The notes under the pieces: generated by a model
Database searches by the model: none
Seen by the model: only the letters and a program-made list of their open reading frames with translations
Told to the model about the DNA's origin: nothing
Shown: positions 21 to 33,647 of the stretch, one piece after another
Layout of the letters: the number at the start of each line of letters is the position of its first letter
Position numbering within the stretch: the stretch's first letter is position 1
Assembly (NCBI GenBank): GCA_017883205.1
Contig: JADGNZ010000018.1
Coordinates: 1-64,000 of the forward strand
Length of the DNA stretch: 64,000 nt
Origin: Thermoanaerobaculia bacterium
GTDB taxonomy: Bacteria > Acidobacteriota > Thermoanaerobaculia > Gp7-AA8
Reading direction: 5' to 3'
Program-made: the position numbers and the translations under genes

Positions 21-248
21 ATCGAGCGCCTTCTCCCCCCGCGCTTTTTGCGGGGGGAGAAGGTGGCGAAGCCGGATGAGGGGGGCGTCGAAAGATGGGA
101 CAAACACGTTCTTTGCGAGCGTGACCTGATTGAAAAGCCATCCTTGCCCAGTGTTTGCGCACGTTGGCGCGACAGGCAAACGCCCCCTCATCCGGCCTTC
201 GGCCACCTTCTCCCCCACTGAGAAGCGTGGGGGAGAAGGCGCTCGATT
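21..248. repeat. Inverted pair of 68-bp palindromic repeats
   Basis: Two copies of one element lie at 21-88 and in inverse orientation at 181-248. Each runs from GAGCGCCTTCTCCCCC through a C-run/G-run hairpin to CCGGATGAGGGGGCG. The pair flanks about 90 bp of unremarkable sequence. The remaining gene-free sequence up to 393 holds a second motif (CGCAATCAACCGACAAC near 343-359) that recurs at 26205-26221. No gene is supported in 1-393. Confidence 0.8.
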
Positions 249-393
249 TGGAGCGCGGTGCCGGCAATTCCAGTGCAAGTGTGAGAAATGCGGGTTAAGC
301 CGGTTCCGACGACACAGCTTCTGATAACGCGTCGCGCAGCGACGCAATCAACCGACAACCGACAACGCGCGGCCCGCCAGGGCCGCGCAGCAT

Positions 394-1365: not shown

Positions 1366-2169
1366 TCAGGCGCGCCGTCGGAGCGTGACCACCCGCTCGA
1401 TTCCGGCGAGATCGTTCGTGACGTCGATGATGTCGTAGCCGCGCGCGACGTGACGCAGATCGCCGAGCTGTCCGAATCCGATCTCGAACATCACCAGCGG
1501 CGCGCGGCGCGCCTCGAGAATGCGCTTGATCACTTCCGTTCCCAGCGGCCCCGAAGTCAGCGCGACACGCGGCTCGTGATCGCGGACTTCGACGTCGAGT
1601 TGTTCGACCTCGGCTGCCGGAATGTACGGCGGATTCGAGACGATGAGATCAAACTCGCCGCGGATGGCATCAAGCGCGTCGGAGGTGGCAAAGCGGACGC
1701 GCGAGCGGTAGGTTCGTGCGTTCGACGAAGCGACGACGAGCGCGGCGAAAGAGATGTCGATCGCGACCACTTCCAGGTCCGGACGCTCGCGCTCCAGCGA
1801 TATAGCGACGCATCCGCTGCCCGTACCGACATCGAGCACGCGTCCGCCGCCGGGTGCGCGCGCAATTGCTGCTTCGACGAGGATCTCCGTGTCCGGCCGC
1901 GGGATGAGGACGCGGTCGTCAACGCGGAGATCGCGTCCGTAGAACTCCGATTTACCGCGGATGTACTGCAGCGGCTCGCCGTGCAGCCGGCGCTCGATGA
2001 GGAGAGAGAACGGCTCCGGATCGATCTCCTCCTCGCCATGCGCGAAGACCCAGGCGGTCGTGTGCCCGGTAACGTCGGCGAGCAGGACGTCGACGTCGCG
2101 CGGACTGACGGCCTTTGTGCCGGCCAGCTCGCGGTAGCGCGCCCGAAGTGATGCGATCGTTTCAGTCAT
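1366..2169 (-). CDS. prmC: Release factor glutamine methyltransferase
   Basis: PrmC (HemK) transfers a methyl group from S-adenosylmethionine to the glutamine of the GGQ motif of peptide-chain release factors, in the cytoplasm. The 267-residue length is normal. An alpha-helical N-terminal domain of about 75 residues precedes a Rossmann methyltransferase domain with the SAM motif VLDVGTGSGCVA and the diagnostic catalytic motif NPPYIP. Only 9 bp separate it from the upstream ABC ATPase at 2179-2901, so the two are probably co-transcribed. No prfA is present in the window. Confidence 0.95.
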   Translation of the reverse strand: MTETIASLRARYRELAGTKAVSPRDVDVLLADVTGHTTAWVFAHGEEEIDPEPFSLLIERRLHGEPLQYIRGKSEFYGRDLRVDDRVLIPRPDTEILVEAAIARAPGGGRVLDVGTGSGCVAISLERERPDLEVVAIDISFAALVVASSNARTYRSRVRFATSDALDAIRGEFDLIVSNPPYIPAAEVEQLDVEVRDHEPRVALTSGPLGTEVIKRILEARRAPLVMFEIGFGQLGDLRHVARGYDIIDVTNDLAGIERVVTLRRRA

Positions 2170-28144: not shown

Positions 28145-28164
28145 CGGTGCTGTTCAGCTTCTAG

Positions 28165-28329
28165 AGCACAGACAAGAGTGTCTGTGCCACACCAAGCCCG
28201 GCTCCGAGGTGTGTTTGTGCCCAAAGCCATGTGGCATGGCACAGACACTCTTGTCTGTGCCACACCAAGCCCGGCTCCGAGGTGTGTTTGTGCCCAAAGC
28301 CATGTGGCACAGACACTCTTGTCTGTGCT
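28165..28329. repeat. Compound CACAGACA repeat between panB and panC
   Basis: Three GCACAGACA/TGTCTGTGC palindromes alternate with two copies of CCACACCAAGCCCGGCTCCG-type sequence in a direct repeat of 73 bp. The outer ends match the element at 12936-13002. It fills almost the whole interval between two pantothenate genes on the same strand and would form a large structure in a shared transcript. Confidence 0.85.
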
Positions 28330-28354
28330 CCTCGATATGCAAACGGACTAGATC

Positions 28355-32737: not shown

Positions 32738-32785
32738 GTCAGTTTTTGCCTGCGCGGGCAGATCTTGCTAGAGAGTTCGGTTACA

Positions 32786-32801
32786 CTTGACTGAAGTCAA
32801 G
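32786..32801. promoter_or_regulatory. Palindrome upstream of the RNA candidate
   Basis: CTTGACT-GA-AGTCAAG is a perfect 7-bp-arm palindrome about 10 bp before the structured RNA. It may be an operator, a small hairpin of the RNA itself or part of a promoter. TTGACT could serve as a -35 box, but no convincing -10 lies at the right distance. Confidence 0.45.
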
Positions 32802-32811
32802 AATTAGTAGA

Positions 32812-32876
32812 GAGACCGGCGACAAGAGGCCCTTCGGCCTCTCCCGTGGCAACACGGGTAGCCGGTCTCGATTTTT
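32812..32876 (+). ncRNA. Three-way-junction structured RNA next to DUF3800 gene
   Basis: On the plus strand GAGACCGGC (32812-32820) pairs perfectly with GCCGGTCTC (32861-32869). Inside are two hairpins: AGAGGCC-CTTC-GGCCTCT (32825-32842) and CCCGTG-GCAA-CACGGG (32843-32858), the latter with a GNRA loop. GACA and UA link them to the outer stem. GATTTTT follows. Every predicted helix pair is Watson-Crick. The U-tract and GNRA loop favour the plus strand. It ends exactly at the stop codon of the convergent DUF3800 gene. It may be a distinct RNA or the elaborate 3' end of the M16 transcript. Confidence 0.68.
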
Positions 32877-33531
32877 AGTAGTACTTCCTGGTTCCTGAAG
32901 CGAACAGATCAAATTCAGTTTGGACGAAGCCTTTGATCACGTCGTAGCCCCGCCGGTCTCCCGCTTCCCACTTCCTCTGAATCGCCCAGGCGCAGTAGTC
33001 CGCGACCTGCAAGCACGGATCACTCGCGGCGCTCCAGCTTGCCACTCTGGCCTTGGCCGTTGGCGACACTTGTCGAATGACGTCCGTTACTGCCGCGTGG
33101 AAAGCCTTCTTCCTCGCGTTCGTTCCAATCGATGCGCTCACAACGAGGAGATCGTCCGTCGATACGGCGATCTTCGGTGCTACATACTTCATGTGCTGGT
33201 ACCAAGCCGTCTTGTAGAAACGTTCATCGGTCACGCGTACGGCCGGGTATGCCTTTGACTTCTCGAGAATGACCGCGTCGATTCGCATCGGCGAGGTGGC
33301 GATTGTCGCGAACACTTTGTCCCGCATCGGCTTGGGATCATGTGCGGCATGAAACTCTCGATCGAGGCCGAATCCTTGAAGGGCCAGGTCTCGACGGAGG
33401 TCGAGCAGTTGCTGCCCCACCGAGCACGTGTCAACAGTCACCGTAACGAGAATGAAGTATCGACTTGCCCCAGCCTTGGAGGAGAAGTCGAAGTTTCCGC
33501 ACTCATCGGCGAATACATACTTTCGAGACAT
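32875..33531 (-). CDS. DUF3800 domain protein
   Basis: The 218-residue protein has the DUF3800 landmarks: N-terminal YVFADECGNFDF (usual DESG), EFHAAHDPK in the middle, and the C-terminal CLQVADYCAWAIQRKWE, where the second acidic and Asp-Tyr positions lie. DUF3800 is regarded as an RNase-H-like fold and is often found in defence or mobile regions. It is convergent with the RNA candidate and divergent from the cyclase gene. The start MSRKYV aligns with the family. Base composition is a little less GC-rich than its neighbours, which fits transfer. Function is unknown. Confidence 0.86.
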   Translation of the reverse strand: MSRKYVFADECGNFDFSSKAGASRYFILVTVTVDTCSVGQQLLDLRRDLALQGFGLDREFHAAHDPKPMRDKVFATIATSPMRIDAVILEKSKAYPAVRVTDERFYKTAWYQHMKYVAPKIAVSTDDLLVVSASIGTNARKKAFHAAVTDVIRQVSPTAKARVASWSAASDPCLQVADYCAWAIQRKWEAGDRRGYDVIKGFVQTEFDLFASGTRKYY

Positions 33532-33647
33532 TGCCTTCGCTTTGGAGGACTCGACTCTAACATTGCGATTCGAGCTCTCGTGCGGCAATGACTCGCTTCG
33601 CCTGTCGCGATGGGCCGTGGCGGCAGCAGCTATAATCCTCCCTTCGA

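Follow-up and report, generated by a model that had tools for sequence, protein, structure and literature searches.

We describe a small structured RNA and its convergent partner gene, which encodes a protein of the DUF3800 family, in a stretch of 64,000 nucleotides (nt) from a Thermoanaerobaculia bacterium (contig JADGNZ010000018.1 of assembly GCA_017883205.1; hereafter the window), and we consider it very probable that this RNA and this protein work as one functional unit. The RNA folds into a three-way junction, P1-GACA-P2-P3-UA-P1' (positions 32812 to 32869, plus strand), that adjoins most of the related DUF3800 genes and is found by itself in virus records, and the protein has a predicted RNase HII-like fold. 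We put at a little under one half the probability that the RNA binds the putative nuclease and restrains it, and that phages carry copies of the RNA as decoys. The parts of the unit in the window are as follows.

32812 to 32820, plus strand: 5' strand of P1, GAGACCGGC, forming 9 base pairs (bp) with GCCGGTCTC at 32861 to 32869.
32821 to 32824, plus strand: unpaired junction strand GACA (GAYA or GAA in relatives, with G and A invariant).
32825 to 32842, plus strand: P2 hairpin AGAGGCC-CTTC-GGCCTCT, 7 bp (usual form in relatives AGAGCC-CCUG-GGCUCU).
32843 to 32858, plus strand: P3 hairpin CCCGTG-GCAA-CACGGG, 6 bp, with length and loop varying among relatives.
32859 to 32869, plus strand: unpaired UA (32859 to 32860) and 3' strand of P1; UA is invariant, and UAG is invariant in alignment A1.
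32872 to 32876, plus strand: U-tract that follows P1' and overlaps the DUF3800 stop codon (plus-strand TTA, 32875 to 32877).
32875 to 33531, minus strand: DUF3800 gene, assigned by Pfam; protein of 218 amino acids (aa) with an RNase HII-like predicted fold and a near-invariant DE-x-G motif at residues 9 to 12.

A preliminary description of this locus had listed a three-way junction with a 9-bp closing stem, hairpins with CTTC and GCAA loops and a U-tract on the stop codon of DUF3800, and every one of these elements is present. The fold has a minimum free energy of -40.9 kcal/mol for 81 nt (z = -5.6), and none of 200 shuffled sequences folded as well. The sequence 3' of P1' is GATTTTT, which runs into the DUF3800 stop codon, and the U-tract is likely the end of the RNA; over 65 loci the positions 3' of P1 are T-rich and A-poor (T 0.32 and A 0.17 per position).

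Relatives of the window protein were collected by a protein scan of GTDB genomes, giving 77 loci in at least seven phyla (Acidobacteriota, Gemmatimonadota, Chloroflexota, Armatimonadota, Pseudomonadota, Bacillota and Actinomycetota). The same junction is visible in the 3' flanks of these genes, by eye and by descriptor. We aligned 16 divergent copies with plain MAFFT and used them to build a covariance model (R1), which scores the window RNA at 62 bits. In that alignment 96% of the paired cells are paired and 12 of the 18 pairs have changed on both sides, a covariation that exceeds every shuffle (0/500) and every slid control; in P1, 7 of the 8 aligned pairs have changed on both sides across relatives. 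The preliminary description had proposed an RNA-DUF3800 pair, to be abandoned if close homologues lacked the structure, and the pair holds up well: R1 finds the junction at 64 of the 77 loci, 6 to 171 nt (median, 26) past the DUF3800 match and on the opposite strand every time. Two of the 13 remaining loci stop at a contig edge, and several alphaproteobacterial ones are divergent by eye. We note that alphaproteobacterial loci such as L013, L018, L046 and L048 have a low R1 score and a P1 that an internal loop splits into inner and outer stems (outer stem, e.g., GUGACCC/GGGUCAC).

The junction is also tied to this kind of locus. Across 528 kb of searched loci, the other R1 matches were the window itself, locus L117 (the same place as L004) and, in L022, a weak echo on the reverse strand of the same site, with none above 20 bits elsewhere. 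Searches of whole genomes returned a single match, at the DUF3800 locus, in 28 of 38 genomes, and pairwise distances between RNAs follow those between proteins (Mantel r = 0.56; 0/2,000 permutations). The sequences also bear on which strand is read. At fixed P1 positions in 65 copies, G.U pairs outnumber A.C pairs 69 to 11 (P = 2e-11), a count that may favor G.U somewhat, the copies having been found with a same-strand model; the plain MAFFT alignment leans likewise (about 28 to 7). A sigma-70-like promoter score above that of 95% of shuffles was obtained upstream of the RNA at 33 of 64 loci and, for the other strand, at 6 of 64. Together, the G.U excess and the promoter scores argue that the RNA is transcribed from the strand opposite DUF3800.

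The window protein matches Pfam DUF3800 (PF12686) at 33.5 bits, the cut-off being 21, so that the convergent gene of the preliminary description is what it was taken to be, and all 58 aligned relatives match the family too. Its start is likely the ATG at 33531, because relatives align from there; a TTG upstream at 33588 is a possible alternative. No sequence relatives were found in the PDB. An AlphaFold2 model (predicted local distance difference test score, 94.6) was placed by VIA-align on RNase HII, with 1eke at Z 12.9 over 165 residues and RNase HII, H2 and H3 structures at ranks 1 to 16, followed by Argonaute PIWI domains with Z near 9; Foldseek gave the same RNase HII placement (E = 3.5e-6). 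In the alignment of relatives D9-E10-x-G12 is near-invariant and D178 invariant, and these residues are candidates for the catalytic D-E-D-D set of RNase HII. The first of these motifs resembles the DEAG motif of RNase HII. PADLOC returned a weak match to its DUF3800_VII profile (E = 8e-6), and DUF3800_VII effectors are linked to retron type VII. A catalytic rearrangement within the RNase H fold has been published for DUF3800 (PMC10910872), and the window protein is likely a metal-dependent RNA-cutting enzyme. In one relative, from a Coriobacteriia record (L073, 3001 to 3639), an in-frame stop interrupts the DUF3800 gene midway and the RNA is intact. The genome of the window carries a second DUF3800 gene of another type (contig C93, 36054 to 36632; L126), with no R1 match adjoining.

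The preliminary description had placed the RNA among the DUF3800-associated motifs known from comparative studies. That general kind is borne out, as this is a conserved structured RNA that adjoins DUF3800 genes in many lineages; it is not one of the DUF3800 motifs in Rfam. Searching the window with Rfam 15 gave nothing at the gathering cut-off and only chance matches at E ≤ 10, with no match to the DUF3800-IX RNA (RF02968) among them. The R1 motif is separate from the DUF3800 motifs that Rfam 15 covers; Weinberg et al. are said to have reported 11 DUF3800-associated RNA motifs in that year, some of which may not be in Rfam.

DUF3800-IX (Weinberg et al. 2017) is a close point of comparison, with a three-way junction of the form P1-GAA-P2-P3-UA-P1' and a U-tail, and it too adjoins a DUF3800 gene, on the opposite strand, in loci L326 and L327. 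At both of these loci, however, it follows another type of DUF3800 (DDSGDPGF...). When 40 related loci were scanned at the RF02968 gathering cut-off, only L073 passed, and marginally (37.7 vs 36.8 bits). This match suggested that the window RNA might itself be DUF3800-IX, an identity rejected by the reciprocal test, in which R1 had no match at the genuine RF02968 sites of L326, L327 and L328 even at E ≤ 10. L326 (1 to 1571) holds both pairs in tandem, a type A DUF3800 with an R1 RNA (246 to 295, minus strand) and then a type B DUF3800 (876 to 1496) with a DUF3800-IX RNA (1501 to 1571, minus strand). Each DUF3800 type appears to have an RNA of its own, because RF02968 follows the different type in L326 and L327 and both pairs are found together in L326.

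We searched IMG/VR with patterns for the RNA alone, the first of which returned 16 records and further ones more, and kept those with an R1 score of at least 30 bits. The junction was found in 25 virus records, in only 3 of which a DUF3800 gene adjoins, and a search of the other 22 over their whole length found no DUF3800. In contrast, an RNA-only search of about 790 genomes of Acidobacteriota and Actinomycetota gave five matches, all linked to DUF3800 and none solitary. The difference (3 linked and 22 solitary vs 5 and 0) gives a Fisher P of 4e-4 for records that are fragmentary and not independent. A loose virus pattern returned mostly chance matches; its new loci gave one clear and one weak R1 match.

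Solitary copies occupy varied places in phage DNA. One stands between the terminase and portal genes (L142) and another after a holin gene (L141), with others near methylase genes. Two are found in phage transfer RNA (tRNA) arrays, 9 nt before tRNA-Ser in L321 (1301 to 1348) and between tRNA-Asn and tRNA-Ile calls in L322 (9696 to 9739). L140 and L147 share about 110 nt that include the RNA, beyond which their flanks are unrelated; the folds of the two RNAs differ by paired changes. Most solitary RNAs are preceded by AAACGUUCC or close forms before P1 and followed by GGUC, as are the DUF3800-linked RNAs of Gordonia phage Kenna, of Roseobacter plasmids and of Coriobacteria; in Kenna, DUF3800 and the RNA follow the immunity repressor. 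Rfam had no match at the sites of the solitary phage RNAs. Elsewhere in L142 (2704 to 2792) we observed a transfer-messenger RNA (tmRNA) match of 89 nt that keeps both tmRNA ends and is missing the middle (53.7 bits), with no ARAGORN call there.

In the window, the RNA and the gene occupy a variable site flanked by two M16 peptidase genes and one FHA-GAF-cyclase gene. Two further features belong to this site.

32738 to 33625, no strand: variable cassette of RNA and DUF3800 between an M16 gene and the FHA-GAF-cyclase gene.
32786 to 32801, plus strand: short dyad CTTGACT-GA-AGTCAAG upstream of the RNA, retained in the same-genus copy (L004).

The G+C content of the cassette is about 0.56 to 0.58, vs 0.60 to 0.68 in the flanks. 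Among genomes of the same genus, G002 (the L004 place) has M16 and FHA-cyclase genes that enclose the RNA and DUF3800, and G001 (contig C17, 17727 to 20219; L116) keeps the same M16 gene with an AAA_15 (OLD-like) ATPase and a ParE-like toxin at the cassette site, and no DUF3800 or R1 match there. The open frame of this ATPase is split in two. An RNA-only search of 396 Acidobacteriota genomes gave matches only in the genome of the window and in G002. Among 105 neighboring open reading frames of the other loci we found no shared third gene, the largest Pfam family being four IS1595 transposases. Because no neighboring gene is conserved, the unit is evidently autonomous and mobile, moving horizontally. 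Outside this site, between panB and panC (28164 to 28330), the window contains three copies of a palindrome of 24 nt, GGCACAGACACTCTTGTCTGTGC. They are spaced 68 to 73 nt apart, within 71-nt repeats that are 94% identical, and look like an interspersed repeat element.

We hypothesize that a small noncoding RNA, read from its own promoter and convergent with the DUF3800 gene, would be the cognate ligand of the DUF3800 protein, and that by binding the nuclease it would keep it inactive in the fashion of an RNA antitoxin. Phage infection would disturb production of the RNA or the complex itself, freeing the nuclease to harm the infected cell, and phages that express the RNA alone would keep the nuclease silent through a decoy or antitoxin mimic. 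The preliminary description had suggested a defense-like unit, a reading on which the solitary phage-borne copies bear. In its most specific form, a single three-way-junction RNA would check a DUF3800 toxin of RNase HII fold as part of an RNA-controlled nuclease defense unit, and phages across lineages would have captured that RNA as an antitoxin, sometimes in tRNA arrays; this we advance tentatively, at roughly a one-in-three level of belief. Several observations weigh against RNA restraint and phage decoys. An activating or guiding RNA would leave the identical anatomy, the virus records are fragments and number only 25, and the promoter score of the window RNA is weak (3.2, with a shuffled mean of 2.7). 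The neighbors are mostly housekeeping genes, the exchange in G001 apart, and PADLOC over the 105 neighbors gave single matches per family, with no defense-island enrichment seen.

In the main rival reading, the RNA would activate DUF3800 as a cofactor or serve it as a guide scaffold, the two forming an active nuclease complex, as OMEGA RNAs do with TnpB and IscB. The strict pairing of RNA and protein would fit such a complex, as would the predicted RNase HII/PIWI-like fold and the DUF3800 accessory proteins of some V-A2 and VI-F CRISPR loci (PMC12669027, PMC10910872). We nevertheless regard it as unlikely, since no variable guide segment was seen beside the junction, the RNA seems to stop at P1' or close to it, the cassette, with one match per genome, does not multiply, and phage records with the RNA and without the nuclease are hard to explain. 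Rather less probable is that DUF3800 serves in processing or decay, as an enzyme whose product or effector is the RNA, and that the RNA acts elsewhere, for instance on RNAs of the phage or the host. The 22 solitary virus copies suggest that the RNA is usable without DUF3800 on the same record, but the five matches in bacterial genomes are all DUF3800-linked, and there is no unpaired region with a conserved seed-like sequence.

It is improbable that the structure acts only in cis on DUF3800, by terminating the convergent pair in both directions or serving as its 3'-end element: its position at the DUF3800 3' end and its U-tract suit such a role, but not the invariant junction letters GA and UAG, the one-strand promoter signal and G.U bias, or the phage copies far from any DUF3800. 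A folded DNA site, serving as a recombination or replication signal, would account for a cassette that moves between sites and phyla, but an excess of G.U (69) over A.C (11) on one strand is not favored by a DNA hairpin, and we give this explanation very little weight. The further doubt raised in the preliminary description, that the structure is only the terminator of the M16 operon, agrees with a start 75 nt after the M16 stop codon and has a negligible chance of being right: as a sufficient explanation it is refuted by G001, which keeps the M16 gene without the motif, and by relatives in which the motif follows DUF3800 in unrelated contexts.

Restraint of the nuclease by the RNA has precedents, though not proof, in two known systems. 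The abiF RNA (RF03085; RCd22), likewise small and structured, came from a survey of the same kind; it adjoins a nuclease-type protein gene in mobile DNA and neutralizes the AbiF toxin by direct binding, in cis and in trans (PMC12373285). AbiF, however, is a HEPN protein, in contrast to the RNase HII fold predicted here, and the RNAs are unrelated. In type III toxin-antitoxin systems (ToxIN and others), an RNA restrains a nuclease, as we only propose for DUF3800, and phages carry RNA mimics, the pseudo-ToxI RNAs that defeat ToxIN (PMC3475682). Those antitoxins differ in being tandem repeats that precede the toxin in one operon and on one strand, where here a single junction is convergent and 3' of the gene, and the toxin fold is unrelated to DUF3800. 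Other known systems are comparable through the protein. Retron type VII effectors (PADLOC DUF3800_VII) share the DUF3800 domain, but no reverse transcriptase or msr-msd was found beside the window gene. The accessory proteins of Cas12a2 and VI-F loci (PMC10910872, PMC12669027) also have an RNase H-fold DUF3800 domain, whereas the window protein is without a TPR domain and has no CRISPR-Cas gene adjoining.

Since 2017 the RNAs associated with DUF3800 have stood as a published puzzle, and the papers examined that mention DUF3800 do not appear to say what such an RNA does. The unit defined here is compact, an RNA of about 60 nt and a protein of 218 aa, with an assigned RNA strand, a predicted nuclease fold and evidence for a match between protein type and RNA motif, and the solitary phage copies turn the puzzle into a direct question, namely, whether a phage RNA may silence a bacterial nuclease.
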